64,000 nt of DNA from Cloeon dipterum (taxonomy: Eukaryota; Arthropoda; Insecta; Ephemeroptera; Baetidae), in assembly GCF_949628265.1 (NCBI RefSeq), contig NC_088786.1, positions 27,239,681 through 27,303,680 of the forward strand, written 5' to 3'. Positions 33,617 to 59,512 of the stretch are shown here, piece after piece; positions within the stretch are counted from its first letter, which is position 1, and each line of letters begins with the position of its first letter. The position numbers and the translations under genes are program-made. The notes beneath the pieces are model-generated. The model was not told the origin of the DNA, did not search any database, and saw only the letters and a program-made list of their open reading frames with translations.

Positions 33617-33664
33617 TGTTGAGGTGTTGGTTGAATTTGACATAACATTTGAAGCAGCTCGGCG

Positions 33665-33672
33665 CTTATATA
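33665..33672 (-). promoter_or_regulatory. TATA box of cuticle gene C
   Basis: TATATAAG on the minus strand about 50 nt upstream of the start codon, the same spacing as in gene B. Confidence 0.6.
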
Positions 33673-36600
33673 GTGGATCGTGATACACATAAATTCAGGC
33701 GAGACAGCCTCGGGACAGGGAGGGAAGGGTGTTTCTCTGCGCGAAGAACCTACGGACGGGCCGGGACTCGATCCCCACCTGCCTGCCTCGCTTGCAACGC
33801 ATGCAGGGAAGTCAATTATTCGACCGGGTTATTAATAATAATAGAGAAGAAGCAGAAGAGAGCGAGCGCCTCCCCGTACAGCACTTTTATTTTATCTCTC
33901 TCACTCTCAATCTCAATGTTACGTGCAATTTTTGCAGTTATGAAACACACTCTCAGCCTGCCAGCATCACGCCGCGTGCACGAGATATTATTAAAGCTGC
34001 AGCAGGCGAATTACACGCCGAGCTCCATTTTTTGCCGCACTCGATGCGTGAAATAAATGTCGCTGGGCCGCTGAACAATACGCTATTTAGCTTTAATTTC
34101 GAGAGAGGAAGCTCGCGCCGCTGATAAAGCTGTCTGCTAATTATTATTACTCTGCTCTCGCGCGTTGTCGGTGTTTTTATATTTCTTTGCACTCGTCGGA
34201 CAGGAACACACTCGCGGATGCTGCTGCCCGCGTGCAATCGCGAAACCTTTGATGCAACACACGCCTGGCATTTCGGATGAGATAAAATTAAGCGTGAAAT
34301 TCATGATCGGCCTGGAATGCACTGTGCGAATCCTCCGCTCTCCGAGTTGCATGATGTCGCTCTTTGGTGTTCGCGATGGAAATGGAATTCGCGGGCTTTC
34401 CTGTTGAAATTACGCCCGTGTTAAATTTCAAGTCTAGCGAGGTGTCTGGTCATTTATTTTATTACAACATGCGCACGCCGACTGGGCACAGCAAATTTAG
34501 GGATTTTCCTGTTGCGCATAATTCTGTGAAGCTCTCGGCAAGTGCTATAAATTGAAAATTAATATTCTTCCTCTGAGTGTAATGTGAGCCTTAATAAGGT
34601 AACAATTATAAATCGTTGTCACGTTCCTGTTGAGAATCATTGCTTGCGCGTTAATAGAAGGTTACTATGACATTTTTATTCAACTGATAAAGAACACCAG
34701 CGTAATTTCAAGAACGATAGGGAGTTCGGTATTATAAGTAGCTTAATTAGTGCTGATTTTGCTAATCACCGTGAAAATTTTGACATGCCGTCAAACAATG
34801 CAGTTTATTACCCTTTTCGTAAGTTCACACGCTACGGATTTCGTTGAGACAAAAACAGAGTAGCAGCGTAAATTGGGCCAAACGCCTTTTAATGAGCCAT
34901 TTTAACGCTCCTTTGAAGGCGAAGTTGTTAATTACAGTGATACGCGTCTAATTGTTGAATAATTGCTCATGTGCATTTCGTTTAAGAGCTTGTTGAATTA
35001 AAAAAGCGTCTTGCAGAATGAAGCACTTTGCAGCTGCTTGAAAAAAGTAATTGCTCTTTTGTAAATAAGCAAACAAAAAACGACGAGAGTGAAATGAAAC
35101 ACGGACATGATATTTTAATAAGAGTAGGAGTCGCTCCATAAATTATGTTTCATCGTGATGGCAACTTTTGTCGAAATTCCATTAAATTCTGCGTTGCAAA
35201 ACTTACATAATCGAGGATCTGTGGAACTCGACCTGCCAACCTTTCATGAGCGCATTATTAACAGGTAGTCGCAGCACCACATCCACAGGCGGCAGAAGCA
35301 CCATTCGCAATAAATTTTCAGGAATTAAAAACAGCTTTCCGACTTGAACATCTGGCCTAATAATTATTATTCTGGAAAAAGAAACGAAATCCCGTCTGAC
35401 TAGTTTCAGCATATTTGGCATCTCTCTCTCTTTCTCTCTCTCATCCCTATTTTATTGCGCCGTCCTGTCGAGGCGCTCCTTATTTCAAGTCGTGTCTTGT
35501 GCAACACTCACTTTATTTGACGCCCATTCATTGCGACTGTGGGACATTTAAATTCGCGGAGGAGGTGCGATCTGATATCTTCCCAAAGTCTATCGCGTTT
35601 TCTCCGCCAAAACAAACGATTATTTTCCAACTCGCTTACGCAATACCCTTGTTTATTTTTTATCTGTGTAAATTGCACGCCTGCTGCCTGCAGAGATGCA
35701 CAATGACGAAAGACAAAAGAAAATTTGTGCTACGGTTTGCTCTCGAGTGAGTGATGCCAACTGCAAGCCTCGTTTTCATTCAATTAAACGTGTCATATCA
35801 GAAAATTAATCTTACTATTAAGATTTCTCGTTTAGTTACGAGTATTTAATTTCATCCAACATACATATATGCCTCCATAATTTACTTTAGACGCCAAGTT
35901 AAGCTTTTTCCTGGTTTCTAATGAGCTAGATATTTAGTTTATTTGAAATTCAAAAGTGGGTTCAATTGTTTTCTAAACGTTTAGAAGGTGAATATTGACT
36001 TATTTAAAAGCTCATTTTTATGAATTAAAATCAGTGTCTTTTTTGATGAAGCGGTCAATTAAACCACTAACATTTGAACCTCCTCAAGTAAAAATCAACT
36101 TGGTGTTCAATTAAAAATTAGCAAGCTATATTTTACTTTTCTAGAACGGTAAATTTTCTTGTACTGACTAAGATAAATTGGTAAAAACACAGGTGGTCAA
36201 AGTTTCGTGTTATAATATTATGCCTCAACATTGACACATTTCTTGAGCTGCCTTAAAGTAAAAAATGAATCCATCAGAATATAACCAGGTGCTTGCTGAG
36301 GCAGAGTTGCAAAATTAAAAGATTTTACACCTCGTAAACGTCAACACACGACTTCTTAAAAGTAAACACAAAACTTGTCAGACAATGACAATGGCTGAGA
36401 CACGCGATTCTCGCGTGCCTAACTCCACGCGAATGTAGACAATCGTAACATTATTATAAATAAAACACCTGAGCAAAATTACGGTGGCATTGTCACCGCG
36501 GCGTACGGTTTGACGAGCACGCGTCGCTGTTTAGAATTCAGACTCGAGGACTAGGCAAATTAAGAGCACTTCCCAAGCATCCGCCCGTGGCAAGGAAAGG

Positions 36601-37574
36601 TAAAATTATGCCAAAGTAGGCACACGCCGCCTTCAAGGAATGCGTGTAGTTTGCGAGCAGCTCAATTAGCGCGCCCTTTAATTTCTTTCGCGAAAAGGCG
36701 CCTATAAAACACCGACTCGCACACTTCGTTTTCCAAGTGCAGACACGGCACTCACGAGCACAAAGGAACAACTTTTGAATGGTCCTTCCTTGCGAGTTAA
36801 ATTTAATTAAGGAACGATCGTTCAAAATGAAGCAGCAGGTTACTTTGCATTTTTACTCGTTTCGCCTTTGTTTAACGAGGCATAAAATTAATTCTCAGCT
36901 CTTGTTAAAAGAATGTTTTGAGGGAATATCTTTGCTAAGCCGCGTAATTTTGAATTCAAAAGCGTCTAGAGCAGGATCAGCACGTCCTGTATATTTTTAG
37001 AAGTATCAAAATCAAGATTTTATCAAGTAATAGAGTGGATGATTTTTTAATAGTATTTTTAATACTTCACTCTCAATTCCACACAACACTTCCTCTGCTC
37101 GCATGAAAATTTGAGAAACACGTGAAGTACAAATAATTCATGAAAGATTCCATAACCCCCGCGCGAACGGGTAAAAATGGGAATATTAACATAAATATTT
37201 CAACTTACGAGGAGTACTTCTAGAGAGGAAAATAAAAATAATAATTTTGTAATCAACAAGGATGATGTATTTTTATTAATTTCCTTCTCAAGAATGCAAC
37301 AAACCTAAAGTGATAATTTTTTCTCGAGAGTTACAAGAAGTCTTGTAAGAGTTCTAAAAATGATTAATCGAATTTATGCAAACATTCGAGTGACCGCACA
37401 CAGTTTCAACATATTGCCTCAATGATGTGAGGGATACACTATTGGTGTACAAGAACCAAAATTAAGATTAGATTAACGAACCGTTAGTATTTTAAAAATT
37501 AATCGTCAACTCCCGTGAAATCAAGCCAAAAAGATATACATATGGTTGAACCTGATTTTTTTAGTGACAATAGC

Positions 37575-37698
37575 GTCCTGGTAGCGGAAAAACCGCGCAA
37601 CTTTCAACAATCAAACGCGAATTGCAAGAAAAGGGCAACAATCAACTCGACAGTGAAAATTTGGGTGTTTGTTGAAAGTTGCGCTATTTTACCAGGAC
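37575..37698. repeat. Imperfect inverted repeat (about 36/30-bp arms, 58-bp spacer)
   Basis: The left arm (37575-37610) and the right arm (37669-37698) are reverse complements apart from one short insertion and a few changes. Shared blocks are GTCCTGGTA and GCGCAACTTTCAACAA. The left arm also contains its own small palindrome GCGGAAAAACCGC. A transcript would fold into a long hairpin. It could be a small non-autonomous transposon (MITE) or a structured RNA; no clear target-site duplication is visible. Confidence 0.6.
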
Positions 37699-38895
37699 TA
37701 TAGGTAAAATCTAGATTTTCATTGTTACTCAATCGTATTTTATTCTTTGTACACTTTGCGCTGGAGATGCTGTACAACAGTGTTCATTCTTGGACTGTAA
37801 AAATATTCTACTACTTACTTAAAGGCCTCCCTGAATTGCTTTTATAACCAACAATTGAATTAATTAAGTGTTATAATGGCACCACATTTACATTTGAATA
37901 AGCAGAAGCTCTTGCTTCCAATTAAAAATGACAACAGCCGTGCGCTTCAGGGAGCTTTAAACAGTTTTTATCGTTTTTGTGTGAACTCCAAATTAATTTT
38001 AAAAAACGTGACCACAGAATAGATTGAAAAATTATAATATTCAGAATACAAGGTAATATTGCCTATGCCTTTTCATCACGACATAAAATAGCTTTCACCA
38101 GTTTTTATTAATGTCCAAACAATCTATATTATTAAATTGCACAGTATCAAATAATTTAGCCAACCGTCTCGCTGTGGAAACTTGGTTCACGACTAAAAGC
38201 GAGGTTAGCTCCTTTGTGGGTGTGTGAAATATAGGAAGATGGCCGAAAATGTCAAATCAAAGCAACTTTCAATATATTGACTATGCAAATTGTGAAAGAA
38301 GCTAAACTCCGGTAAATATGCGAGAGCGAAAAACTAGTTTGGCTAGTTCAAAACGCGATCCTTTCACGATATCTATGAAATTTTGAAGCACGTGTCAGAA
38401 GGATGAAAATTCACTCTGACGGTTACGCACTCACTAATTTAACTGCCGTCAACGATCCCTCATTAATTACTATTTCCATTTGCTCACACTGTTTCGCACG
38501 GTGTTTTATTTCATAAGCCAACATATCACGACGACGCTTCCTGCTCATTATATCAACGCAAAAATACGAACAAACGCGCGCGTACACGGTGCTGTTTGTA
38601 AAAGCGCAAACAAAATCAATTTGGAGCGTTTCGCTGGTGCAGTTTATAGGCACTTTTGCCGGCACATCCCGGCGTGATTTCAATTATTACACAGCAACGC
38701 GCGCGTCAGCACACAGCAGAGCAGCGCCGACGACAAGCAGGAGGGGTTGAAATTCAAGGGATGTTATTACATTATGTAAATGCGGCGAGATTATTTGGAA
38801 ATTTAATGTGCCAGCGACAGAGAGAGGAAGTTTCATGGGCGTGATGCCTAATAAATTGGTGCTATCAGATAAAGAGATGGTGTGGAGAGGGATAC

Positions 38896-38918
38896 AACAC
38901 ACACACACACATACACAC
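38896..38918. repeat. (CA)n microsatellite
   Basis: CA dinucleotide run with one AT interruption. Confidence 0.8.
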
Positions 38919-41900
38919 ATGCTCTCACGCCACACGCTAATCAATAGCCGCCTGATATGTGCCATGTATTTCTCGGGCTGGGAAACATGCGAAAACGCCC
39001 GGCCGTCGTTTCGTTTCACGCAGCCAGCTCTCGCCTCCGTGTAAACGGATACATATGTGTGTGTGTTCGAACGGTAGCGCGCGCCCCCCTGCAAGATAAG
39101 GAGCCGCACACGAATTTCGCATAAATATTTAATTGTCGGAGAAGCGGCGGCCTTTTCTAATTGATTCTGCGCCGAGCCGACCAGGGCTGTTCTCTTGCGC
39201 TGCTTTTCTCCCTCCTCCGGCGCGGCGTTTGCTATAAAGATAGCGTCACTCACAGCCACTGGCATTTACATCTTTGCCAATAATCTGCGCGAGTACTGCT
39301 GCTGCTGCTGCTGCCGCTGCTACAAATTGCATTACGCGCCAGCGAACGTGCTGTGTGCTTTATATCGGTTTTTTGCCCTTTTTTATTCCAATTTTTCTGC
39401 TCTTAGCCGCTCGCTCGAAAAGTTCTTTTGTGCAGATATCGTTGCTCAGATTTTTTCCTTTAAAGTTACTGTGGTTTTGGCAAAATATTAAGGATTTAAC
39501 ATAACGCGTCACAAATATTATTTTATCTTTTGTCTAAAAGCAAGTTATTTTTAGATTTTTAAATGCAACATATAACATCCCTTAATTTGGTAGTGCATTT
39601 TTAGCCTGCAGTTTTATTTCCTTTCCCGTCGTTCAGAGCAACCAGAATAAAATTTTCCCCCTCTACGTATATGTTGCGAAAAAAACATTTTATAATCTGG
39701 TAAAAACAGCGATGGTGCTTTTTTGGTTCTTCTCTCCTGCTAGCGAGCAACTCGCGTCCCAATACCATCGCGAACGAATAACATGGGCTCACGAGCCTCA
39801 TTGAATGAAGCCCACCGGGATATTTGATTGAAACCCTAGACATTCGTCCCGTGAAATTAATTCACGCATGTTGGAGAGGTGCAAACCAGCAAGTCGCGAG
39901 TCGAACGGCTTTCCCAATCCTCCTGAATCCCAATGGACTCGTCACTGCAATGAAAGAGACTCAAACGTAGGCGCAAATCAGTCTGCACTCGACCCCAAGC
40001 ATCGCTCGGATTCTCATGCAGCAAAAGTGTATGTAAAACTCGCGCTCAACAATACATGAAAAATACTCCAAATTATTTAAACGTTTACTACTTGATCGTT
40101 TTTACTTTCGTGTTTGAAGACTGCATTGTTATTTGTTTTTGTTTTCTTAGGTATAGCAGGTTCGAAATAGCATTTTTTTAAAATATAGGTGAACGAAAAA
40201 ATTCAATCGCCATACAGTACATCACAACTATGAATTTGTCGAGGGAGGAAAACAGTGAGAAAAGGCAGCTCCATGTTTAAACTTAATTTAGAAGAGCGAA
40301 GCCGAATATCAAATGTGGTAGAGAGGGACCAAAACCATTCTATGCAGTTTTTCTCTACATGGAAATATTATTAATTAAATTTTCCCGATGCTTGTTTTCA
40401 TTTAATAAGTTTTATTTAAAGAAATAAACTTGAATTTTGTCCATTTTATTCAATCGTAACAAAAACACATATATTATATCATAAATGTAGGGAAACCTGA
40501 ATTATTTTCACTATATTATGGATATTTGATGCGACGGGGTTTCAATCAAGAGGTATTTTATGTGATTTCTTGCTGGTGTATGTGTTTTTCTTCTTATTTA
40601 ATTTCATAGAAAGGGCACGCAGAAACGTGTTCTCCGCAGAAAAACCTGTTAGAATTGCGAATTCCACTATGAAATCTCTTGCCTGGTGGAGTGTTCACCG
40701 TGATCAGCAAGGTGAATTTTGTCAGGGTTAGATTTTGCACCAAGTGTCTGGGGATGACTATAGGGTTTTTTTGTTTTCTTATTTTACAATTATTTATATT
40801 TACTATACAGTTTTCCTTCAAAATTCAAAATCCAAGCCAATATGAAAGATTGTTATTTTAACACCCGAGCTGTTGGTTAATTACGAATGTAAATCCGAAT
40901 GTGAAACACGATGTTGACTCTCGGTTTCTCGCAAGGAGCGACGACTCGACATCTTTAGAACATGCTGGAAACTGAAACACGTTTGTGTAAGTAGGATTTA
41001 AATTGAAATCCATGCTCCATCATGTCCAACTGAATAGTTTCTCTCCATTATGCATCACATTAAGCTCGGCTTTGACATTTAAATAAGCATTTCATTGCTG
41101 TTATGTGCATTGCAGAATTTTATTGCATAAATAGACTCGTCTCTTATTACGACCTACGCTTCAAGGGATCTCAAACATTTTTGTGTAAGTGGCCACGTCG
41201 AGCTTTGGACGCGGCGCACTAAATAGAGGACTAGTCCATAAGCGAATGTTAAATGAACTTCAATCCGTGTTAATGTGTCTGTTTCGACTCTTTCCATATG
41301 CAGCAGCCCTATTTGCATCGTGTTTTTCCTTTTTAAATCGATTGCGGCAACGAGAGCTGGATTATAATTAACGAATGAAAAGCGAGCGGGCGCCGCGCGC
41401 AAAACACGGGCGGATGCGGTGTGTTCATAATGCAATAAAAGCCAAAAAGGCGTGTGAGCGCAGCAAAAATCGATTTCTATCAAAATAGTATATTGCCAGC
41501 CAAGCGACGACTTACTTGGAATCGCGCGCCCAGCACGGAGGAAATGCCGCTTCGCCCCGTGCGCTCGCATGACGGAGCACAATTTGCATGCTGACATCTG
41601 ACCCCCGAAAGGCTGGGTGTAATTATTCCCATTATTTCCGATTTGCGTACGATCGAAAATGAAAGTGGCAAGACACAATATTTTGGAGCCGGCCCAAAAG
41701 CCCAAAAGAGGGAGCACCCAGTGCACGCGAGGAATCAACACGTGTAATTTATGCAAAATTTCCTGGTCGCCGCAAAATCGTTGGACGCGCCGAGATCTCG
41801 TCGGGAAAGGTCTTTCATGTTGCACCGTCACCGCGTACAGCACGAATTTCGCCGATTCATTTGCACATAGTGACCCAACCAGCGGTGAAAGAAGAAAGGG

Positions 41901-44900
41901 ACTTACACTTTTCTTCATTTTTCATTGTTTGTTCAGTGGACATTAATCGCAGCAGGATGGACGGTAAATAAGTGGCGAAAGATGAATGAATCATTGCTTA
42001 ATGTATATGCGTGTACTTGCGCACGTTTGCGCAACGAACAAAATGTTAAATTGAAATGCAAATGACTGATGAGCCTACTTAACATTTGAACCGACGTCTT
42101 AGACAGCCTCTGTGCTAATTAAATGAAAATGTTGTGACATGTAACGGAGGTAGTCTACTTTTTAAACAGTGAAAAGAAATAATTACAGGTTTGGACGTTC
42201 TTGAGAAGTTTTTAATTGGCAATAATTAATCATCTATTGTTGCTGTGAATTGTTGCTTTGGAATAATAGCCATCAACATTTACTTCGGTGAATAAATATT
42301 TGATAAATGAGTAAGGAGATTTATTTAAAGAACAAATATATCTAAATTGAAAAATCGACACGAAATGTGGCTAGCTTAATTGTTAATAAGAGAAGAAAAT
42401 AGTCACTTTCCGCAGTCGCACCGCAAAATGACATTGGCTTTGTCTCTATTAGGAATTGCTTCTCTGAAAGGATAGTATTATTTGTGGCTTGTTACATTTA
42501 TGAAAAAGGATTTTTTTCACTGGAAAAATAAGTGACATGCGATTCACGGAATTCATCACTTGTCTTATTCTCTTGGTTTCTACGTTTGCTGATGAGACCT
42601 CATCAGAAAAATCTGCTTGAGAAAATTGTGTGAATTTTGTTTCCTGTTTCATTTGCTTTCAGTCAGTGCGAAAAAAGAGACTGAAAATTTGACACAATGA
42701 CAAATTAGAATATGAACCAATTTTGAGGTTACCTTAGGACGCAATTACACAGTTAATATATTCGCAGAGAAGCAGAAGGAAGTAAAAATAAATTATCAAA
42801 TGCTTAAATTTTCACAAATTTAAATCTAGTCACGAGCATGAACTTTTTACAAATTTTTGAACACCTGATAAATTTTATTTCAAAACAACCTATTATGATG
42901 TGTTCAGTGCTAGTTTATGTAAAACATGAAACTTCACTTGTCCGTTGAAGGGAGTGTGTTGAAATGTTTTGGCAATTCATATTAATAATTTAAATCAATC
43001 TCGTACACAGTTGAATTTTTACCGCAAGTTAAATACAGTGTATAGTAATGTAATGGAGAAATGGACCATCAACTATCACAGATCACAGCTATATGCTTGA
43101 ATTGATTTGGCTCCTGTGCTCATTTTAATTCATGCAATTATTAAGCACCGCGCTCTTCCTATAATTACTGTAAATAGTACAAAGGTGCTGACTTTTGTAC
43201 AGAGCGTGCACGTAAAAAACATTAGGAGCAAAATTACTCATGACTTGTAGGAAAATAGCATCTAAGCAAATTGTTTTACGATCGAATTGCACAGCATGTT
43301 ACAGATTGCATCGATCTGTTCGCGGGCAATAAACCGAGGTTTACCACCGTCGATTACGAGCTTCGGTCAATTTGCATACGACGCGCGGTGGCGGCGGCGG
43401 CGTCAGACGACTCGCTCGCTCGCAATACCGTCACACGCGGCGGCTGCAGCGGTGATAGATTAATATAAAATAAGAATAGGCGGGCGCAATAAATCGAAAA
43501 ACAAATAGCAATTTTTCGCGTTCCACTAATTTTTAACAGGAAGATGCGAGGCCTTCAAACAAAAGTAATTATAGCATGGCAGTGGAGTGAATCTCTGCGG
43601 CGCGGCGTTGTGAAAAGCAGCGGCCTTTCTCCCTTTCTGCAGGCACTGACAAAATCTCGCCTGGCTGACCTTCAACCGCTCCCATCCGAAAGTGAAAGAT
43701 GGCATGGGATGCGGACTAGTAATGTGAAAGGTCATGCCGCCGCCGCCGCCACGGAGCTGACAATTGCCGGTAGAGTATTAGAGTTACATAATTAACGCGT
43801 GCGATGCGATAAAATTCCATCAATCGCTCGCTCGGCTGCTGCAACGTATACTTTGCATCACAGCGACCGCCGCTGCCGCCACGGCACCTCGCAATCTCGC
43901 GAGCCGGTCGGAACCCGCAAAACGGATTTTATGCGTGGTTTCTGCCAAAAAGTGGAGATGGGATCGTACCACCCACTCTTGGATGACCTTAATCTCGTGA
44001 TCTTTCGGCAAAGCGAACGTGCAGTAACGCGCGGTTGTCGCGCGGCGCAGTAATCACGATTCAAGGACCGAAATCGCGGAAAAGTAGCGGCTCCTCGCAC
44101 CTGAATGGAAATCCCTACGCACCGCGCTGCCGGCCTCCCAGGAGTTTTCATTGTGCGAAATTTCCTCTCCCCGACTAAATGACTCGTTCATGCAAATAAA
44201 CAAATGGTGCTTTGTGATCACTAGATACTTTCGAAAATCCCTTGGGTTCTCGTTACTTCCTTTTGGATTTCTACTGGAGAATCTTATTTTCGCGACTGCT
44301 GTTCTTTATTGCACTCTTTATTCCATATAAGCCTGCGCATCAAATTTGTTTGCTGTGGGAAATCACGATTTGCGAAAAAGCCCAAATGCAAAGTTTCCTT
44401 TTTAATCCACTGTTTCATGAACGAGCGTTGTTAGAAAAAAATATGCTCGTCTATTAAAGTCGATTTGAAGACTTTCATTTGCTCGCTCAGTAATTTCAAT
44501 TCGAGGATGATATACATGCATGGCTGACGCAGAACGTGCTGCGTTATTGTGCACAATTATCTGCCTCTCGCCGCCAGTCGAACCCCCAGTAAAAGAGAAA
44601 TGACGAGTTCGCCTGTTGCAAAATCCCATCGATTTCAATGCCGTTTAGGTCAGCAGCGCGCCTACGTGGGTCTTTGACAAAAAAGTTGCAGAATACGTTT
44701 TTTTGTGGAATATATGAGTGCGACATTAGTTTTGATCTGGCGTGTGCTGTTTTCCCACAGGCAACGCTGAGCACTGCAGCGCGCAGGAGATCCGTATTTT
44801 TGTCGCCCAAACGCTGATATCCTGTCGTTATCGTGGTTGTGAAGTGCGTTTTCACGCCGCTGCTCCATTAGATGTGTTTGATCAAATGAGACATTTTCGC

Positions 44901-47900
44901 CCGCAAAACGTGAAATTTTTCAAAAAAACAGGCAGGTCTGTAAGGTACGTCAATTTTTTTAATTACAATATTAATATATTATACTCTTTTGCTTGAGTTT
45001 TGAATACATTGCATGACGAGCAACCCTAAAGACACTTATTTTGTAACAATTAAAGTAGTATTAAATAATTATAGAAAAGAAAGAGAGAATTTTTGTTGTT
45101 GTTAATTCTCGCTTACATTATTCACATATCATATGTAAACGAACATTCTGTCAAATAGGAGGAGAAGTCAGGAAATAATATCAGTTGAACGAGTATTTTG
45201 TTTTTAGTGTTCTTTGTAAATTACTTCTTTCTTTACATATTTGTTATTTATTCTCCATTCCAGTGCACAAGCTAATACAATATCCATTGACAAAACTTCT
45301 GCGTGAAATATATACAAATATATGAAGTAACAAATTAAAAATGTCACTAAGAGTCAAATTTTACAAACTAAAAATCAAATCAACATTTATAGTAAAAAAC
45401 ATGTCACAGGTTTACTTCAAGAGTAACTTCAATAAATTATACAGTGTTCTTTTGTTCTTGGTGATGTAAGAAGGTAATTTTGTGATTATAGAGCGTTGTT
45501 ATCAAAGCAAATATTCCCACAAATTATTTATTAAACCTGCGGTATTCAGGATAATGTTTATTTGTAAGTCAAATTTGCTCATTTGCGGAAATTTGAAAGT
45601 TTTTCCTGATGGACCTCGATTACATCAAGACTTCTTTGAAGCAAAAAAATCTGTCAAAGATGATTTCTCAAGTAAGTTAATTTAAACTTTCAGGAATTCT
45701 ATCAATTGCAAAGGAGTGGTTGCAAATTTCAACAAAAATATATATAGTAGATCTAATTTCTATAATCTATTCCAGAAAGAAGAAGATACTCATTTGCTAT
45801 CTACCTCAAAATCTATAGTAGATGGGATTACATGATATTGTTGAACCTTTGACGGTTGACCTATAGTTTTAATTGACTGCTTTTCAAATTATCGTAATTC
45901 TTCATCCATTCTCCTGCTCTTTGTTAGTCTGAATTGAATACCAGGTGATTTTCTCTATCGTGAGCCACGGCGCCCTCTGCGGAACTTTCACAGCAAAGAC
46001 GATCTCTAGAACTTTGACTTTACTTAACATAAGATGCGGATTTTCAAATGCCGGCTGCTTTTACCGTCGGTATTTTTATGTCACTTCTCCTACCCCGACA
46101 CTAAAAACCAACTCATTTTTCCGTTGCGCCTGTTCACAATGGATAATTCACTCGGCGTGTGTGTTATAACGACGAGCGTATATATTCCAGCGAAATGAAT
46201 GAACCCACAATCGAGTGCACTACTTTATTACACACACGTCCGCGTTGCAAGCAAAAGCCGTAATAATGGTGGCGCGTTGCATCCGATTGCCGCAACTATT
46301 CAGTTTCAGAGCATGATTTATCAATCGCGGTCGAAACCAGAGTGCAGCCATGCTGCAGCAGGTCGGAGCGGTGTGCGGGTGGAAGCGACGCTGCCTGGAT
46401 GCGCAGCTCGGAGATAATTATCTCGGTGCGGGCGATAAGGAAATTAAGAGAAAAAGGTCGATTCCGAGAAGATCTCTAGGCTGGGGCAGCATGACGCGTG
46501 CATTCGAGCCGGCTTTGTCATGTTCTCCGTGACCTGGGGATTTGTTTTATCGCGCGCGCGAGGCGTACAGCACCGGTCGGCTACTTTCACTGCAGGCTGG
46601 GCCGTGGATGCTGCACGCCGCTGGAGGATGCTCAAGATTGGGTCGAACAACTGATGGTCATCAACACGCCATAAACGTCAAGAAGTTGTGCAGCATTTAT
46701 TTGCCGAGTGTATGGAGCGAGCGCCGCCTCTCCGGCCGCCGTCGTTCGTTCTGCAGCGCGCGTGCTGCTGAAAATGTTAAACTTACCTGCAGGCCTAGAG
46801 TGGTATTCATGCTGCAAAAGAGGAGACCGACCAACCTTTCGCCAGTCGACCGCCGCCGCGGCATCTTCGTAACCTTTAAAGAGCTCGCGCGCCACCGCCG
46901 CTTGTTATGAAACATTGCGTTATTTTATATATACACACACATCTATATACATGGGGTCGTTAATAGATCTGGCTGCGATCGAGGCACATTCTCCGCGATC
47001 ACATTTCTGACGGATGATCGACTGCTCCTTTGCCTTCCCTCTCGTTCGTTTCGTGAATGCGCGCGGTTTGCACAACTTTATGGTTCCGAGAAGTTTTGAA
47101 ACGACCTTCAGCGCGTTTTAGATTTTGGTCGGCGACTCGCATGAATTAAAGGTCACGTGCGACGTTTTTATATATACAACACCCAACAAAAGCAACTTCA
47201 ATGTGGCGTTTGATAATCATTTTCCGCAGAAGGCCAACATTATTTTGTGGATGAGGTGGACCTTAACCACTGTCTCTTGCTATTTGAAACGTACGAGACT
47301 ATAATATGGTTTCCTAGAAATGCAACATCAAGTAATGATAGCCTCAAAATATCTAGTGTTAATAGGTGTAGCGTTTTTTCTAGAAATAATTTCCTTTCTT
47401 GGCTTGACACCAGAATCGGCGTTTGCGGTTTTCTTTGTATATTTAGATTTTGAAGGTTACTTGATTTATTTAAGAAGCCGGCTGGAGATGCAAAAGTTTA
47501 CTACATGTAATTACAAAGTTAAAAATTTAAGTATCTAAATGCTGAATTAATAAAGCTGCAATTAACCGTACAATAGATAAAAGTGAATAAATTTTTCATT
47601 GAAAAAAATAGACTGGACACTTTCAAGGAATGCAAAACGATTTTAGAAAACACTCCGTGCATTCTTAGAAAGTTTTATAAATTACCATAAGATAGTTTTG
47701 AAACATTATATTTATTGCGATTTAATTGGGATTTAATCAGCTAAAAGCTGGATGGTTTTATTACTCATTTAATTTATCCCTATCACGCATTTATGCTTTG
47801 GTTAAATAGTATAATTGTCCTATCTGCTATGAAACGTTAATGAAACCTGCTAACTCATTAAATATTATGACACAAATTTGAAGCCATCATCAGCAACAAT

Positions 47901-49259
47901 GCGTACTCTCTCGATTTAGTAAAGAATGATTAGAAAAATTTCAATTGAAAGATTTCCCCCGTGTATTAACTATTAAATGCACGCAGCATTAGATAAAAAC
48001 CCGTTAAGTTGATTCACAATAAAAAAGTTATTCTATGCAGCTGCCATCGACATAAAACAAATCAAGAATTCTCGTGGTGGCCACGCATCAAACCTAATCC
48101 AAGTACGAGATTGAGTGATATATATGGGGGACATTGAACCGAAAAGCCGGAGCTATTGGATAATGCAGCAAAAATGCAGGATAAAAGTGGCTTACACACG
48201 TATGGGAAACGAAATCAAAATGCAGAGAGCGAATAAGTTTTACAGAAAAATGCCAGCGCAGGGAATGAGTAAAAAGTTGACTGACTGACTGACGTGTCAC
48301 GGAGTGATCACACTGGCGGAGCGGATAAAAACGGAGGCAGGGAATAAATTTGCATCTTGGCCTCCGCGAAATGCGATCAATCTCTCTCTCTCTCGCTGCA
48401 CACGATTCAAATTCAAACCGAGGGGAAAATTCAAATTAGCCTGCCAGACATAACACTAGCAACGAGAGCGCGCCGCGAGTTCATGCTGCATTCACAGACT
48501 AAATGAAATTAAATCCCGAGTGCGCTGATCAGAGTGAATATATGCGCGCTGTGTGCTGAGCGAAATCAAAACACTCGAAATCGTACAGAGTTGTAAAAGG
48601 TTTTTCTTAATGACTTTTGCCCGACCAAACGCGCGCAGGTTGTAACCGAGTTTTATTGGGAGCCAGGTTAAACTCGTATAATGTCATAATGAGAAAAAGT
48701 ACTAAATATCCAGCTCGCCGCCGTTAAGGATTTATGGTGATTTTTATCACAGCCGTTTGGCCGTTTTTGACGTTAAGTCGGCCCGACGAGAGAGAGAGAG
48801 AGATCACAATACACTGTCTCACCCACGATTGTGTGCGTGCATACGGACCCAGGAATTCAGAGAATCGCAGAGGGCAGCCCCCCGGCATTTGAATAAAAGT
48901 ACGCTCGGTGAATCTGGAATTTTCACGCGGTAATGTGCATATTATTTCAAAAGATGGGAGCAGGAAAATGTGCATCGCAAAATGTGGGCGCAGTGACGGG
49001 TAGACAATGTCGCAATTCCGCCGCCGTCGTCGTTGCCGTGAATATACACATTCGAGAGAGAGGAAGATGCTGCATGGGAAAATTCATGGGCATGCACTCG
49101 CTCTTCTGGCTCTTGCTACAAGCATGCCGCTGATTTATGGCTTTGGTTTCTTGCCCAAAGAGCGAGACTAAAGGGTGCCGAAAGAGCTGCATACACTTTA
49201 TCATTAGTAAAGATCGTGTCCGATGAATACGCCGCCACGAACGATGAAAAAATCGAGTC

Positions 49260-49470
49260 CTCTTATTATGCCGCCAGGGTTTTGGCCTTCGATGCAATAA
49301 AGATGCCGCTTACTGCTGCTGCACACATTTATTGCACTCGCTGCGAAACTTATAAATAAAGTTACATGTTATGTGTGGCTCCTGCTTGCTGATTGCGTCG
49401 GAACACGGAACATTTCTGCAAAACGCATTTGTTTCACGCCTGCATTAATGTGTATCTTTTAACCCACTCA
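49260..49470. repeat. Duplicated non-coding element, copy 1
   Basis: About 200 bp that recurs in the same orientation 2.8 kb to the right. A 46-bp core (49274-49319) is identical in the two copies; the rest is recognisable but diverged by substitutions and small indels. Inside are inverted GCAATAAA boxes (49294-49301 and, as TTTATTGC, 49328-49335) 26 bp apart. No ORF is conserved between copies. Confidence 0.75.
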
Positions 49471-52083
49471 TTTGCCGATTTAATACTGTTTCTTTTTTTC
49501 CTCCAAAACAATTAATCACATAATATAATACTAAGCTAATTTGTAAAAAATTAAAATCACGAGTTGCCCCTTACAAATAGAAAAAATAAAGTAACACTGA
49601 ACACTGTACTTTCCCTGTAATTTCTGTAATATTTAAATTGTATGACGTTGCGGTGTTCAGGAATATTATTTATCGATCTGAAATTTAAAAAAAAACACGT
49701 AAGAAAAATTAGGCATTTTTTGTAGCGTTATCAAACCACTCGTTGAAACTTGAAGTATCTTATTAATCATTATAGTAATCAGGCATTGGAAAAAAAGAAA
49801 ATCAAACCTATCTGGGGTCACTTAATTCATAAATAGAGATTGGATGCAGTCGGACGTTTTCGAGGACCATTGATTCAGGATTATCTGCACCTCATACTGT
49901 CATATGAATTTTGTCACGGAGGTAAGGTACTACTGATGAGACATGTGGGGCCGAAATAGCAAACAGCAAACTGTGCAGAACGGGAATTTAACATTATTTT
50001 TTACAATAATTGTTAGTTTAAATTATTGAAGGGTGGCACTATTCGCACTTAAATTAGGGGCTGGGGGTCACGGCATACATGCCTCATTTTGACTATGTTC
50101 ATTAAAATTCGGAGAGGAATGTTACAAAATTTTATATTTAGACTATTATCACATAGGGTGTGAATTTAGGGGTTGCAGGGCTCTTTTCATGCTTTTTATC
50201 CTATCCCCACTGAAATAAGGTGAACTTCAATTTTATTCAGTATTAAAACTCACTTATTGTTAGAGCCACCCATTCCTGATTTGTTTGGCATAGTAAAAAA
50301 TATTTCTGAATTATCTAATTAGTTTAAATGGCAATGCAACACGCAAAACTCGAACGTTTATTTAAATTAAACCTAAACAGAAAAGAAAAAATTATACGCG
50401 CAACATAATTTCTAAAAAAAACAATTTCAGCAAGCACGCATGACACAGGAAAAAATCATCAAATTTACTTAGATATTAAAAATGCGTGTTTTGATATATA
50501 TTTGAAAATTTCTGTCAGGTCAGTAATGGAATTTCTTAATAATTTCATCTTACAAAGTCTCACTAATGTCGAAATTTTAATCCCAAATGTTTCAAAGGTT
50601 GTAAAAAAACCATTGCGTTTCAGCCGTTACAAAAACTTGAAATTATGTTGACATGGATTCCCCTATTAAGGAAATTTCATGATTACCTGTTTTACTACTA
50701 AAAAGACATCTTTCCTAAATTCTTGCGTCAAATTTACTTTATTTAGTTGAGACACACCTGTTTGGTCGGTCATAGAGTTCTAAGACGCAAAAGCGTTTTA
50801 TAGCGCTCGCACTTGTTTTCACCTTGACACGTCACTTTTACGGTGACGCTCGACCTTTGGTCCAGCTTAAAAATACTATTGCTCACTGTGTTTTATTCAC
50901 GTTTTTGCATTCAACATTCAACTCCACCCACGCCAAGTTTCAGTCGCATTATGCAATCCCCAAAACAAGTTAGGCAACATCGATACAGTGGCGTCGCGCA
51001 GGTTGCATAAATAGCATGCCGACCGACCGCAATTTAACAAATGACGTCGGAGTGCTGTTTAAGGACGAACGGCGCTTCCTGATTCGATTGCCGGACATTT
51101 AAATAGCTGCTTGCAAAGGTCAGGGTCCACTAACACATTCCAAACATTGAGGCATGATGTACCTGGAACAGTCTTCAAACGCTGCAGTAAAATAAATTTC
51201 ATGAGCATCCCATGCTCAAAGAGGAAGAGCGCCATTTGATGTTCTCTCTTTTCAAAAAGAATAAATTTGCAACACACATGATGTACTCTTCGTCGTCGGC
51301 CGTCGCGCTACAGACAATTTAAATAACCTCGTTTCCTAACACATTCATGCAAATGCGAAAATTGAAAAATTCCACATAACCGCGTATGCTGCAACAAGCG
51401 CGCGCTTTCATCCTCTCGCAACGCAAAGTGTGCCGCTCGCGCAGATGATGTTTTTGATACAAAAAACGAACGCGAGGGAACAAAAAAGAATTGTTTCTCC
51501 GGCACCGTTCGTGGATTCGTCGTCTGGGCCGGATTGAAGCACGGCGGCGCGCATAAACCCATCTTTATTGTACAAATTCGGTGGTAATCTGCTCGGCACA
51601 CGCGCCGGCGAAACAAAACGCGCATTATTATAATGATTCGGTGGCACACAAAGCGTCTGGAATCGCGACGGCGGCACTATGGTATGGTACTCGGCGTGGC
51701 GGCCGGCAGCTGACTATTGTTGCCGCCCTAACGCGAATTTTCATTTTCGCTCGATGAAACCTCGGCTGCAAACCTGCTCGTAAACTTCAAACAAATTTTG
51801 TTTGTTTTTCTTCAACAAACCCATTGATTCATTGTAAAACTCAGGATACTCAGATTTGAGGAATTTTTTTAAAAGGATTATATATCGTTGGCAGACGCCA
51901 TAACGAAGGCTTTCATAATTTTTCTGTTGAAATTAAATGAATCTTCCTCGGTGTATGTAGCGACCTTTTAATTTTTCATCATTTCAAAAATAAAAGTTTC
52001 CTGCTCGACTAGTTTCAGCTGCTGGTTGCAGCCCTAATCCATGAGCTTCCCGTCCCGTCTGAAGGCTGAGGATAACTCCTCGG
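49471..52083. other. Sequence between the two duplicated elements
   Basis: AT-rich, no supported gene. Only short ORFs, for example at 51308-51677 (-) in a GC-richer patch, without recognisable domains. Confidence 0.5.
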
Positions 52084-52280
52084 TTATTAATATGCCACCA
52101 GGGTTTTGGCCTTCGATGCAATAAAGATGCCGCTTACTGCTGCCGCACGCATTTATTGCACTCGCAGCGAAATTCATAAAAAAGTCAGATGCCGCTTCTG
52201 CTTGCTTGCGACAGAATATGGAACATTTATGCAAATGCATTGTTTTACGCTTGCATCTAAATGCGTTTTCAACCCCCTGT
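52084..52280. repeat. Duplicated non-coding element, copy 2
   Basis: Second copy of the element at 49260-49470. The identical 46-bp core is at 52098-52143 and the inverted boxes are at 52118-52125 and 52152-52159. The box spacing is the same as in copy 1, although the flanks have diverged, which suggests constraint on the core. Confidence 0.75.
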
Positions 52281-54709
52281 TACTCCAATTTGTTTCAGTT
52301 TAGTTTAGTGTCGACATATTCACAAGTTTGGTTTAGTTTATAGAAGAGGGAGCTCATTAATTAGGGCTGCATTCAGCAGCCGAAGAGTTGAGCAAGAACT
52401 TTCTGTAGAAATATACGGAAAAATAAACAGATCGCTATGATACACCGAGGAGCCTGCACTTAATTTTTAATTGGGAAGGTCATCAATGTGCTGTTATGAA
52501 CCACGATTTTCTATTATAATTAATGGTTTATTTAATTAAGCTTAACTTACCCTGAACTTTCCTAAAAAATTCCAATTTTTTAAGTGAGAATTCTTGAATG
52601 CCAGCACTAAATTCAATTTCAAATAAAAGCCAAGAAACATTGGTGGAGCCTATTATTTAATTAGTGTTTGTATCTACCACATGATCATTCCTTTTGGTTT
52701 AAAATATCCCGAATATATCCCTATTTGGCAATAATTCATAAATTTTAAAAGAAATTAGACTCTTGAGCGATTTCGTTTAAATTTAAAAAAAATATATATG
52801 GAAGATTAGGTAATCTCTGCAGTTGAAATAGTTATGAAATTCGATAGGGGTTTAAGTACGTCCAACAAGAATTTTTAGAAAAGATTTTATAAATGAAATT
52901 TTGTGCCTTTCTCAACCAAAAATAAATAACCGTACCTCTAAACCCTAACACTAACCCCTTCCTCCCCCTATGAAAGTGCCCCCCTTGATGGTAAAAAAAA
53001 ATACTTTTTCTATATGAAACCGGATCCGATGTCGCTTTCAGAGCTCAACGTTCACACAAACTCCATTGGAGTGTGAGAGCAAAAGCAAATTCCTGGCGAA
53101 CAATTGGCGTTGCGGTTGGCTATTGGGAAGTCGTTGAGCGCGGCTCGTCCATAGTTTGCTGAGAAATGCGTGCGTTTGTCTCGGCAGAGAGCACAATGTG
53201 CCCTTCGTCTGGCGACCAACACACAGTGTGCGTGTACGTCGGGAATTTATTTTGCTGATTTTACAAACATTACTATCGATTTTCCTCCCTCGCTGCTCAC
53301 TCACTCTCCGGCTGCCTGCGCGTACGCTCTCTCTGGTACATGGAAACGCCGCCTCCGCTGCCGCCGCCGCGGCCGCACCAGTGTAAATGTCACACACATG
53401 CGTTTTATTTCATTTTTTTCCTGCCCGGCATTTCGGACCGATTAAATTTATTATCTCGTCCGCTCGCTCTCGAGCCAGCCAGCCAGCCGGCCTGATAAAG
53501 CCGCGAGCGCTGGGCATAAATCGCCGAAAATGCGCGACTTTTTCGCCGGGCGCAAAGAAGGAAAAGAAGCGACGAGCTTGCAATTTATTCCAAGGATTTG
53601 GCCCAAGAGAAGGACGACGTGCGAAGTGTGCGCGCCGGAATCAACAGGCAGTTAGCAGCACTGGCTAGTCCAAAGGAAAAAAATAATCATGCTCGCGCTT
53701 ATCTGCGTGCAGTGTGTACTATGGGCGCGCGAGAAGTGCCGCTGGCGATAAGCTCGCGTCTTCCCCTGGATTGCGTGTGTGTGTGTGTGTTGCTGGTTGC
53801 TGCACCGCCACACACTAGAACTTTAATCTCGAAATTAAGTCCGAAACATGTCCACAGACGCGATTGCTAACACGGGAAGCATTTCATTATCATTATCCCC
53901 TTATTGAAATTTCAAATTATTATTGCGGTTTGATTACGACATCGGCCTGGCAACGGGATTTGTTTTACCAATATGCCGGGTTTTGAAAGCTCGAGTGTGT
54001 TGAGCAACCGTGTTACGTTTTTCCAGGCTTCGATTTTCAACACTCTGTGGTGTTTCGACCACCTTGCCTGCCACGCCCTCAAAACCACAGGACGTGGCAC
54101 TGCCACATTGCGAGCAAGTGATTAAAATGTTAGATTAATTAGTTTGAAAAGAAATTAGGAATCAATACATTCACTTGACAAGAAAAATAAATTGGCGTTT
54201 AAATAATCCAATTTACTTTGTTTAATGCTTCACACTCCTTCCTGTGCTTAACTTAACAGTGGAAGTGCGGAGATTTAAATTTCCCGACTGTATTTTACGC
54301 TCCAGGCGAGTCTGAAAAGCAGACAGAGCGCGAAATCAACGAAATTCATTAACTTCAAAAACAAACAGCGCAGAAAAAACAATTTTACAAGAGAATAACA
54401 AATGCGTGTGCACTGGAACACAAGTGACGTCAGTAATATTTCCACACAAACATATTTGCACTTTTTGTCGCATCTCCTCTCTCTCTCTCTCTTCTCATTC
54501 TGTCCAACGGAAAAAGCCAAGCGAATCGATCACGGCAACGGCACACATCGTGCCTCGTACTTACACGCATAATTAGCTGCCACACATGTACACACTGCGC
54601 GCAGATTAATCTTAAAGGAAAACAAATACACACAATCGTCGTCATTCATGATATTTGAAGGAAAATTCCAAAGGCGCTGCTACGTCATCGTCATCCCGTC
54701 CGTTGAGCG
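52281..54709. other. Desert sequence downstream of mir-184
   Basis: No supported gene. It becomes GC-rich with CT/CA tracts from about 53.1 kb, with a GCC/GCG triplet run near 53350-53375, a (GT)n run near 53775-53790 and a CT run near 54476-54492. On the minus strand this is downstream of mir-184 and may belong to its primary transcript. Confidence 0.45.
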
Positions 54710-54793
54710 TCTCTCTCACAAGCCCTTATCAGTTCTCCGTCCAGTTATGCATGTCACACAAGACCAGAGAATGGTAAGGAAGCGTAAGAGACA
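54710..54793 (-). ncRNA. mir-184: microRNA mir-184 precursor
   Basis: The minus strand at 54743-54722 contains the complete 22-nt mature miR-184-3p as I know it from flies and vertebrates (starting TGGACGGAGAACTG and ending in AAGGGC). The opposite arm at about 54779-54757 (CCTTACCATTCTCTGGTC) pairs with it and resembles fly miR-184-5p. The loop is about 13 nt (54756-54744, TGACATGCATAAC). The stem continues below the mature duplex (TCTCTTAC against GTGAGAGA), as needed for Drosha processing. miR-184 is an ancient bilaterian microRNA with roles in eye, nervous system and germline. It sits alone in a gene desert, so it must have its own primary transcript. Confidence 0.96.
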
Positions 54794-55027
54794 TGGGGCA
54801 GGCGTGCAGGCGGCTGGGCGCTGGTCTGAAATCGCAAATCAATCGCAGCACAAATCGAACGAATACATACACACGCAATGAGAGCAGAATGAGAAAAGAA
54901 CGCGAGAGCGAAACAATCGGCGCGCGTATACATGGGAATTGGGAGATAAAGCAGCGAATAAAGCAAGCAAGCAGCAGGCAGGCTGTGTGCTCGCTTGTGA
55001 GTGTGTATCGCTCGCTCGTTTTTCTTT

Positions 55028-55060
55028 TCTCTCTCTCTCTCACACACACACTCACACACA
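55028..55060. repeat. Compound (CT)n(CA)n microsatellite
   Basis: CT run followed by interrupted CA run, about 300 bp upstream of the mir-184 hairpin on the minus strand. Confidence 0.8.
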
Positions 55061-55129
55061 TACAAAAAGCGGCCGAGCAGCCACATGTGTGCGCCGCTAT
55101 TGACGAGCGCTTTCTCACTTCCCTTTATT

Positions 55130-55600
55130 CTCTCTCCCCATCATCCGTCGGCGGGGCCCACATGCACGAGGGGCGCGACCCGCACGCCAAACGACGCACG
55201 AGCGAACGGCCCCCGACGCCGGGGGCCCGCCGGAGGCCCCCGTCGGCCGGCGAAAGGGGAGTATAGAGCGCACAAAGGCCGGCAGGGCGCAACCCCCTAA
55301 GATATAGACACCCGAGGGCAGAAGCAGCCCCGCCTATGCGAGCCGGGGCCCTGCGAGGGCCCCGGCCGCCGCCCCAGTCATACTTACGACGGCCTCTCGG
55401 GGCCCGGAGCACTGCGGCCGGCGGGTGCGACGACGGAGAGCGGCTGAAAGACGTCGAGCCGCCGAGAAAATCGTTAATTCTGCCTAAAATGGAGGGCTCG
55501 CTGCTGTGTAATCGTGACGTTGCGTTAGGAAGTACTCGAACAGGGAGGCGCATTGGCACCATGGCCGGAAGCTTCGGATTCTGCGCGGCCAAATTTTAAA
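55130..55600 (-). promoter_or_regulatory. GC-rich block with strong minus-strand 5' splice site; possible first exon of pri-mir-184
   Basis: A CpG-rich island in otherwise AT-rich DNA. On the minus strand it contains a near-consensus 5' splice site (GTC before GTAAGTATGA, boundary at 55388/55387), about 600 nt upstream of the mir-184 hairpin. An ORF runs through it (55592-55125) but ignores the splice site and has no known domain. I infer a non-coding or 5' UTR exon of a minus-strand transcript, with mir-184 in the following intron. No TATA box is seen here. Confidence 0.4.
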
Positions 55601-57340
55601 TAGTATGTGCAGCAGCGTTCCACTTGCGCGCCACGCTCGGCCGCCGTCGGCGCCCGCTCCTCCACCGACGGGGGTCGTTCAACCGCGCGCACTCGTGCGA
55701 ATTTCGCCGAACAAACTCTAGTCGATTCAAAAATGCCGGTCACAAAAGCCGATATTAAAGATTCCGAATAATTCTAAAGGAAAATATCCTGAAATTTTGA
55801 AACTCTGAAAACGAATTTTCAGGCCAGGAACAGGAGGAGCTGTTCTGTTCCTTGCGACTTTGAGCCTGAATTTTTCGCAATTAGGCAAACCGGAGTGCAC
55901 GCCTCTCGAGGGGGTTGCCTGATTTTGCGTTTCCAAGGAGCAACCGGTTTGCTCTGCACTCACACACACGCCGTCGGCTGCTCCTTAACTAATTCTCCTG
56001 TGCACACGGCACACGTGTCGCATTCTGATTACTGCTCTTTCTCGCGTTTGCTCTCGGCGCGCTAGCAAAAGGAATAATAGGACGGGTGAAAATAAAAATG
56101 GACGGACGCTGTTTTAAAAATTTAGCACTGGATGCGAGTGCTAAGCCAGAAACTCTTGTCGTGGATAATAATTTATAGACTGCGCCAAAAGCAGTAAAAA
56201 CAAGCACACACACACATACGTTCATGCACGCGTTTCTACTTTTGTTTCGTCCGCTTATTGCTTTCGGCTAGGGACCTGGGCGAAAAAATGCAGACGTTTG
56301 CGAAACACGGAAGCTTGGCCTGCATGAGTAATTGGTTATGATTCAAAATTTATGCTCTCGTACGTGGCCAGTATATTTTTGTGATAAATAATATGGCAAT
56401 AATTCACTAAGCTCTTTGAGGAAATTTTTAAACCTCTCGCGCTTTCATTTTGATATCGTAAATGAGTATAATAGGCATCCGTGAAGCGGTTGCGCGCATT
56501 TTTATAGTCACAGCGCGCAGTGGGAGCCTCAATTCCATTTCATCAGCAGTAAATTGAAGGAAGGAAACAATGAAGGCAAGGGGAAGTGATAAAATGGTCT
56601 TTCCTGCTCGCGAGCGCACATTCTAAAAGCTAAGAAGGCTTCTCGTCCGTTTTGTCCAAGCCGTCAAATCCAAATACGTACCAAAATACACATCAACCTC
56701 TTTTTTCCAATTGCTTTCACTGAGAGCAATTCTCCTCGTTTTTGCTAAATAATCGTGGCGTCCTGCTCTTTCTCAGATTTCATCTGGTAATACAATCCTG
56801 TCAGCCCTCGAGACATTTCCAATTTGTTTGTCAAACCTAGAAATTTTTCAATGCGTTGAGAAATATAATTTTTAACAGGCTTATTAATTTACTCCTAAGA
56901 AAACATTTATGACCGGCGTGCACTGCATTATTTAACAGGAAACTATATGGGCGTGCCTGAGCGCTGATAAAAATTTAAGTATAAATTTTTAATATCTATG
57001 AACACGTATTAGGGCTGTTAATACTTTTAGTAAAATGATTTTTCCTAATCAACTCTACTTTTTACTGAATTTTGAAAATACTCCACACAGTTTAGATCTT
57101 TTTAAAACCAAGCTACTACAATCTCGTTTTTGTTCAAATACTTCTAACTATATATTTCCTCAGCTGCACTACACTATGGCTTGAGTATATTATTTTACTT
57201 TGCACGCTCTGTTGGGCGTGGAGATAAGGGAGTCTGTTGGATTTCTTTCAGCTTGCAATTTATTTGCAGATGCTGTTCGAGATACCTTATCAGGAGAGCG
57301 GAAACATATTTTATTTGCTACAGATCAAGATGAGGGAGAG

Positions 57341-57343
<3 letters not shown>

Positions 57344-57382
<39 letters not shown>
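57344..57382. repeat. (GA)n microsatellite
   Basis: About 19 nearly perfect GA units, followed by a shorter GA run to about 57398. GAGAG words are also binding sites for GAGA factor in flies, so this may be regulatory. Confidence 0.85.
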
Positions 57383-57385
<3 letters not shown>

Positions 57386-57872
57386 TGAGAGAGAGAGAAA
57401 AAGCAACGTACTTTACACAGGCTTGACCGTCTCCGGGTCTCCGGCTCGGTTGTTGCAACAAGTATACAAAACGTGAGAGAAAAATGAAGAGTTGGCTTAG
57501 CTGGATGGGGAGCAAGTTCTACGAGTCTAGCTAGCGAGCAAAAAAATCGATGGGTGCCGCATGCAGGGCGCAGAGACCAACCAACGTTTACTTACATATC
57601 TGCGGCCAATTTTCGCACTCTCCGAAATTAGCTTTTCGCAAAGCCTGCCATTTTTACTCTGTCTCTCTCGCTCTTTCGGTCTGAAATTTGCTCCGCTCTC
57701 AGTGTCTCTCTCAATATCTCGCTCGTTCTCTCAGTCAGTCAGCAGTAAGTGTGAGTGTGTGCTCCCTCTTTCTCAGCGCAAAATCAATTTGGCCTTTGTC
57801 TGCTCCGGTTGCCTCCTGCGGGTAGTGTCGCTGCTGCCTGTGTCATTTTGCTCCGCTCCCGAGATGAGCATG

Positions 57873-57883
57873 CCCCTTTTATA
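57873..57883 (-). promoter_or_regulatory. Strong TATA box, candidate distal promoter of pri-mir-184
   Basis: TATAAAAGGGG on the minus strand, close to an ideal core-promoter TATA box, with no protein gene starting downstream of it. Transcription from about 57.85 kb on the minus strand would run into mir-184 3.1 kb later. Function is inferred from sequence and position only. Confidence 0.4.
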
Positions 57884-59512
57884 GACCCGGCAGCCGTTGC
57901 CATGGAGACTCGCGCATGACCCTCCATCTCGGGCTGAATATCGTTCTCCTGTGTATATAGCACCGTTTGCTGGAGGGATGCTAATGCCCTAAACCGTGGG
58001 TGGGTCGGTGTATGTGTGTGTGTGATATACCTATTGGACTCTCGCGCGCGCTTGCCGAGCTGCACGAAGAGAGAGTATGGAGCGCGGACGGTGTTTTGCC
58101 ATTACTCTTTCCTAGCAGCTTTCAGGCCTCGCTTGTATAGCTGCTGCTGCTTCTTCAATTCAATCAAGAGAGAGCTCGCAAATTAATATGTTTGCCTCCC
58201 TCAAACTTAACCGTTATTTAGCCTACCCAGCTGTCTCATTTTCTGTAAAGATAGTCCAGGCGCTAGTTTTATTTGAATAAAAATATCCAGTTTGAGGTTT
58301 TAAATATTTATTTGTTTGTGCGTTTTAATCAACAACAGGCTCTTTATAGAGAGAGCAAAAACACAAAAAGCTCGGCTCACTGAAGAATTGGCCAGCATAA
58401 ACTATTAAAAAAGGGCAGAAAATAAAGTTGAACGATCGATAGAAAATATTTTACACAAGCTTATTTACAGAAAACTGCTGTTTGCATGAAATAATTTTTC
58501 GTTACAATTTTAAATTCATGAATAGGTAAGCAATATTTTTCAATTCCAAAACACAATGTTTATTTATCACTTATAATTTGTGTAGTTACAACAGAATCAC
58601 GTTAAAATGCTCGCAATTGTTATTGTTATGGCAAATATCTAAAAGAGCATCATATATTACACTTTAGCTTTAAATCTGATGTAGACCAGTTGTAAGCAAG
58701 CGATTTAATATAAATCCCTTGTTTGGTAACAAATTTTATGTTACTATTGATGATAAAAATTTGCGTTAATTGGCAGCTATTAATTGTGAATTGCGAGAGA
58801 TGAACCACAGGTCTTAATTTTCACTTTTTTGAGTCTGTAAGTTATTTTATATAGATAAATTCGTACTACCGTTAACTTTTAGTTAAATAAAGGAGAGATT
58901 AAATGGAATATATCCGCCCACATGTCTTTTACTGCCTCTTCTACCAAGTATTGATTATTTCAACCAATGTTCTCTCGCTGTAAACACTCGTGTAGAACTT
59001 CGTGATCAATAATTTAGCTACAACTCTCTTATTCCTGCAGCATCAATTGTTTTGTACGCTGAATCAAGACGAAGATTTCATTTCCAGGATCGGTTGTAAT
59101 GAAACACAGATGTAGGATCTTTTTAAGAATAGCGCAATACAGTTCATTGATTGGCATTCGTAGCAAATAAAGAAGCATCATAGTTTCATTCATTGTATAA
59201 GTTGTTGAAAATTTTAGTTGCCTTGATACAAGAATATATTATTTAATAACCGTAAAGCTTACAATAATATAAATACTGTGAAGATTATCATCTCAGGAAT
59301 AATAAAGCAGTGCTAAAATTGCTTTTCGCTCACATGACTTGATCCAATAATTTAAATTCTTAAACATGAAAATGCTGAATAAGTTTTAAAAAGAATTGGA
59401 TTATTATTATTATGCAAGGATAACAGTAAACCGCACTTCCCCCAACCACAACAGCATCAATCTATTTTTACATCTCAATATGCATCAAATGTATAAAATT
59501 GCAGCAAGTCTT

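Follow-up and report, generated by a model that had tools for sequence, protein, structure and literature searches.

An intact mir-184 locus on the minus strand of a protein-gene-free gap in Cloeon dipterum

Introduction

The microRNA miR-184 is reported to be abundant in honeybee embryos, in mosquitoes and in Tribolium oocytes, and the Drosophila primary transcript (pri-miR-184) is described as a substrate of the Microprocessor in S2 lysates (PMC4550278). The gene is stated to be single copy in PMC4714849. As to its transcriptional control, a study on Anopheles gambiae (mir-184, AGAP028779) describes a neuronal reporter that, once inserted at mir-184, was expressed in the midgut, which the authors credit to nearby cis-elements, so that local cis-regulatory activity can be inferred at that locus (PMC12032250). 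For the hairpin arms, comparison can be made with Thrips tabaci tta-mir-184, with honeybee ame-mir-184 and with the Rfam family RF00657 as a whole.

The Cloeon dipterum hairpin described here is like the RF00657 family in matching the family model over its full length, in carrying the 3p sequence in the 3′ arm and in having been found in one copy, as also described for mir-184 in PMC4714849. It differs from the family in the 5p arm, whose sixth position is a C that gives rise to a C.A mismatch and whose 3′ part is altered. The 22-nt 3p sequence is that of the published tta-miR-184c of T. tabaci, and the 5p arm of thrips is similar, with 6 of 22 positions different; the honeybee arm, taken from a primer that carries a 3p label in its source, is also similar, with 5 of 22 different. 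Cloeon dipterum thus adds one clean mir-184 locus, with its borders mapped, to the comparative record, which alone changes nothing of what is known.

Identity and fold of the hairpin

The features of the hairpin, in coordinates of the window (i.e. the whole 64,000-nt stretch of C. dipterum DNA that was analysed), are as follows.

54710..54793, minus strand: pri-mir-184 hairpin with basal stem (Rfam RF00657, fold)
54722..54743, minus strand: miR-184-3p, likely guide strand (22/22 identical to tta-miR-184c; ends by homology)
54744..54757, minus strand: terminal loop of 14 nt, separating the arms
54758..54779, minus strand: miR-184-5p, likely passenger strand (pairs with 3p in the fold; 22-nt ends assumed from bee and thrips)

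RF00657, the Rfam model of mir-184, matches the minus strand at 54712-54791 with 61.0 bits (E 8.9e-11; model positions 1-86 of 86), to be compared with a curated cut-off (gathering score) of 54.1 bits, and is the sole Rfam match of the window above the gathering score. The window contains the exact 22 nt of miR-184-3p a single time, at 54743-54722, and the runner-up 22-mer on either strand has 8 mismatches; the number of perfect 22-nt matches expected by chance is approximately 7e-9 (2 x 64000/4^22). Both the seed of miR-184-3p, GGACGGA, and the conserved body are present, as in members of the mir-184 family.

The minus strand between 54695 and 54805 folds at -37.1 kcal/mol into a long stem, in which the 5p arm is paired with 3p, plus a basal stem; shuffled sequences averaged -28.6 kcal/mol (z -2.67) and none of the 200 shuffles equalled the native fold. 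Structure alone is not diagnostic for mir-184, because this genome abounds in long stems, with 30 pairs or more in 86 of the 3746 windows of 100 nt taken from 31.4-59.5 kb and in 238 of 10576 in the background (8 regions scanned out of 20 fetched); the identification is based on the sequence match and not on structure. The first-pass annotation had read the locus as mir-184 on the minus strand, with a complete mature 3p sequence, a pairing 5p arm and a basal stem, and had proposed a fold of the reverse strand as a check: this reading holds for identity and strand as well as for the coordinates and the assignment of the arms, and the fold is that of a stable hairpin.

In primary transcripts, UG and CNNC motifs help Drosha. 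Here, a basal UG begins 14 nt before the 5p arm (-14) and a CNNC begins 17 nt after the 3p arm (+17), both being short, chance-prone motifs. Taken at the level of the sequence, it is well supported that the locus is an ordinary, intact mir-184 gene, that is to say a new instance of a very old, well-known gene-silencing microRNA.

Copies in the genome

The genome searched amounts to 190.1 Mb in 10 contigs, and 56 of the 16033 first-look candidates were scored with the mir-184 model. Within this scope, RF00657 has one match genome-wide, namely the window locus itself. The 22-mer was found, with up to 3 mismatches, in two places of the genome, and the reversed-pattern control in one. The candidate second copy at C1:7444286 has 3 mismatches, one of which changes the seed, and none of the four frames folded there resembled a mir-184 hairpin, so that it was rejected. 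A second, better-conserved mir-184, a case that had been raised at the outset as bearing against the locus, was thus searched for throughout the genome and none was found among the candidates scored. Outside C. dipterum, the 22-mer has 0 matches in the viral contigs of public collections; the single 19-mer match among public genome contigs, in an archaeal MAG, was set aside, approximately 1.9 being expected by chance.

Expected processing and silencing

The best explanation overall, to which a probability of about 95% is given, is that the locus is the single mir-184 found in the genome, that it is intact, and that it is expressed as an independent minus-strand non-coding transcript with canonical processing and silencing. 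With the sequence, strand, fold, position and one copy found as described above, the steps of processing, strand choice and silencing would, by analogy with the family, follow the usual order. Thus, transcription of the minus strand would produce an independent, non-coding primary transcript, Drosha/Pasha would cut the basal stem of pri-mir-184 and Dicer-1 would take off the terminal loop; miR-184-3p would then be loaded into Ago1 as the guide, and the Ago1-bound miR-184-3p would be expected to repress mRNAs matching the seed GGACGGA.

The protein-gene-free gap and its borders

The DNA around the hairpin is delimited as follows.

33617..59512, no strand: protein-gene-free gap of 25,896 bp (cuticle ATG at 33616, epsin TGA at 59515-59513; no convincing Pfam match inside for the ORFs scanned)

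Both borders, the cuticle ATG and the epsin stop, are gene models built from the sequence. The first coding exon of cuticle gene C is small and reads ATGAAGATC, followed at its end by GTAAGT, at 33616-33608 on the minus strand, with TATATAAG at 33672; epsin, on the minus strand, ends with NPFLS and then TGA at 59515-59513. The size of about 26 kb that had been attributed to the gap between the two genes is, therefore, correct, the gap being moderately large for intergenic DNA. Its description as having the hairpin in the middle is not: mir-184 lies instead near one edge, at 82% of the gap, 4,720 bp below the epsin stop, the distance to the cuticle ATG being 21,094 bp. Among the literature matches listed, none describes an insect mir-184 as a neighbour of epsin or as located in a gene desert, which is not proof of absence.

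The gene content of the gap was evaluated by scanning against Pfam 150 of the 189 stop-to-stop open reading frames (ORFs; at least 60 aa, ending at or above 31 kb), longest first and all of at least 66 aa. Ten families were matched at E<=0.01, and the convincing ones are Chitin_bind_4, in the cuticle exon at 31086-31397 (75 bits), and the ENTH domain of epsin, in ORFs within 62504-63363; a UIM match, below cut-off, is found in epsin at 61998-62321, and an ANTH match (E 0.0014) is located on the ORF that carries ENTH. Phage_CI_repr, DUF3915, Atrophin-1, BCL_N and DUF7462, with single-protein E values of 0.002-0.008 in a scan of 150 proteins, were taken as chance matches. A CCAP neuropeptide gene was considered for the ORF at 44547-44867 (minus strand) and rejected as chance, the Pfam CCAP score being 18.6 bits versus a cut-off of 27; the CCAP mature-peptide motif did not turn up in any of the window's six frames, and a CCAP match over the cut-off is found elsewhere in the genome (on C3).

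With regard to RNA genes, two of the four rows returned by Rfam at E<=5 for 31.5-60 kb were bacterial sRNA families far below their cut-offs, the others being mir-184 and its own antisense (25.1 bits). No tRNA was found in the window with ARAGORN (bacterial code). That the hairpin is the only clearly functional element of the gap, as first proposed, agrees with what Pfam (150 of the 189 ORFs) and Rfam returned, but such scans cannot prove it.

Regulatory DNA in the gap

From the size of the gap the first-pass annotation had gone on to suggest a regulatory landscape dedicated to mir-184, a reading that accords with the finding of no other convincing gene within the gap in the Pfam ORF and Rfam scans, but that is regarded here as rather unlikely. 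Gap size does not support it, because the hairpin is near an edge, repeats occupy the distal part and 26 kb does not look, in our judgement, exceptional for a 190-Mb genome; furthermore, the regulatory DNA of the cuticle gene and of epsin would share the gap. The dispersed repeats are found at approximately 39740-40080, 49845-50204, 51906-52081 and 52343-52471, with many genome copies of 71-90% identity, the copy counts being lower bounds from the matches kept. Those at 51906-52081 and 52343-52471 match single places in opposite orientations, like the arms of an inverted-repeat element. When the region of 54-59.5 kb was searched against the genome, it matched simple repeats or its own place only, in a search that leaves simple repeats and highly frequent words out of account.

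The enrichment over background of two hexamers would also be consistent with a landscape across the gap. GAGAGA occurs 80 times in 31.4-59.5 kb, on both strands, versus 33.9 expected, but the count is inflated by the array at 57332-57398, without which 58 occurrences are left (18 plus, 40 minus). This array, upstream of mir-184, is made of approximately 33 GA dinucleotide units. GTAAGT occurs 19 times in the same region versus 7.2 expected from a 200-kb background, a 2.6x excess (8 plus, 11 minus) that might reflect spliced non-coding transcripts. A spliced primary transcript was considered as the source of the GTAAGT excess and rejected: both strands carry the word, approximately 5 hexamer pairs are equally or more enriched (3954 hexamers tested) and one of the minus-strand occurrences belongs to the splice site of the cuticle gene itself. 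TTTCAG, the word for a 3′ splice site, shows no enrichment (14 occurrences on each strand versus 14.1 expected).

The reporter at the Anopheles mir-184 locus, with its acquired midgut expression (PMC12032250), may also be quoted for a landscape, but the result carries no information on the 26-kb extent. By analogy, it makes a local cis-regulatory region near the hairpin plausible. The size of the regulatory region is suggested weakly, and its extension to a dedicated landscape of 26 kb is a guess. Were related genomes to have blocks of conservation along the gap, the locus could contribute to delimiting the regulatory region that underlies the strong mir-184 expression of insects.

Candidate promoters upstream of the hairpin

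Two candidates were noted between epsin and the hairpin.

55150..55750, minus strand: GC-rich patch that may act as promoter of pri-mir-184 (500-bp GC up to 0.67)
57876..57883, minus strand: TATAAAAG (TATA box), alternative candidate core promoter, weak

A promoter located upstream of the hairpin by no more than a few kb, in the GC-rich patch (55.15-55.75 kb) or else at the TATA box (57.88 kb), appears most likely, as weakly suggested by composition and by a TATA match at background frequency. The GC-rich patch lies 0.4-1 kb upstream of the hairpin and reaches its maximum, a 500-bp GC of 0.67, around 55.15-55.65 kb, the genome GC content being approximately 41% (200-kb sample); a value of 0.67 over 500 bp was reached in 9 of 3820 background windows, all of them in one of the 20 regions. 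TATA-type boxes are not enriched, with 2 in 28.1 kb, both strands, versus 3.2 expected. The inverted repeat at 55342-55366, within the patch, is the only perfect one of the window (stem of at least 11 bp, loop of 3-8 nt).

Since the epsin gene shares the strand of the hairpin and terminates 4.7 kb upstream of it, mir-184 might instead have no promoter of its own and be excised from transcripts that read through past the epsin 3′ end. This is judged improbable: both promoter candidates intervene between epsin and the hairpin, and the Anopheles locus shows cis-regulatory activity of its own (PMC12032250), neither point being decisive. With regard to the preferred independent transcript, a seed-match site of 8 nt, TCCGTCCA, is found on the same strand 1.3 kb upstream of the hairpin, at 56106-56099 (minus strand), and may be in the primary transcript. 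The same word at 54736 (plus strand) corresponds to the complement of mature miR-184; in the background, the word occurs 7 times in 200 kb, both strands.

The 5p arm and the opposite strand

The 5p arm of C. dipterum, CCUUACCAUUCUCUGGUCUUGU, was compared with the honeybee primer that resembles a 5p arm, CCTTATCATTCTCCTGTCCGGT (table of PMC8466209), and with the star sequence given for Thrips tabaci, CCUUGUCAUUCUCGUGUCCGGU (PMC6053560). In the primer table of PMC8466209 the label ame-miR-184-3p stands on the 5p-like sequence, and the labels may be swapped. As far as these published sequences go, bee and thrips differ from each other at 2 of 22 positions, to be compared with the 5 and 6 that separate C. 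dipterum from bee and thrips, respectively. The C at position 6 is unpaired in the fold, facing an A, and the isolated 5p:3p duplex of C. dipterum (-17.2 kcal/mol) is weaker than those of bee (-27.0 kcal/mol) and thrips (-24.8 kcal/mol). To speak of a diverged 5p arm, as had been done with reference to a fly arm, is fair when the bee and thrips arms are taken for comparison, the change being moderate; the 3p arm is indeed intact, with 22/22 identity to the published tta-miR-184c.

The iab-4/iab-8 locus is a precedent for the production of sense and antisense microRNAs from the same DNA. For mir-184, prediction in silico from both strands of a transcriptome is reported for the wheat stem sawfly in PMC5630980, and the plus strand of the C. 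dipterum hairpin folds at -30.2 kcal/mol, with the 5p change giving a G.U pair. However, this fold is no better than those of shuffled sequences (z -1.02, 29 of 200 as good) and the plus strand scores 25.1 bits with Rfam versus the cut-off of 54.1, which makes a second microRNA precursor on the plus strand very unlikely. Equally far-fetched is a bidirectional locus, in which the 5p change would weaken the sense stem and the antisense hairpin would yield a second microRNA with its own targets. Finally, a decayed, non-functional mir-184 with its 3p retained by chance, for which the duplex weaker than those published for bee and thrips could be invoked, may be dismissed as extremely improbable, since 3p is perfect, the RF00657 match is full length and over the cut-off, no better genome copy was found and the changes lie in the passenger arm.

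Other features of the window

Three Chitin_bind_4 cuticle exons are found on the same (minus) strand, approximately 5-6 kb apart, at 20032-20316, 25476-25865 and 31086-31397. A BTB domain (172-507) and a Psq-type HTH domain (3811-4431), both on the plus strand, possibly belong to one gene, and IPK and ADA2-ZZ Pfam matches lie within the left 31 kb of the window.
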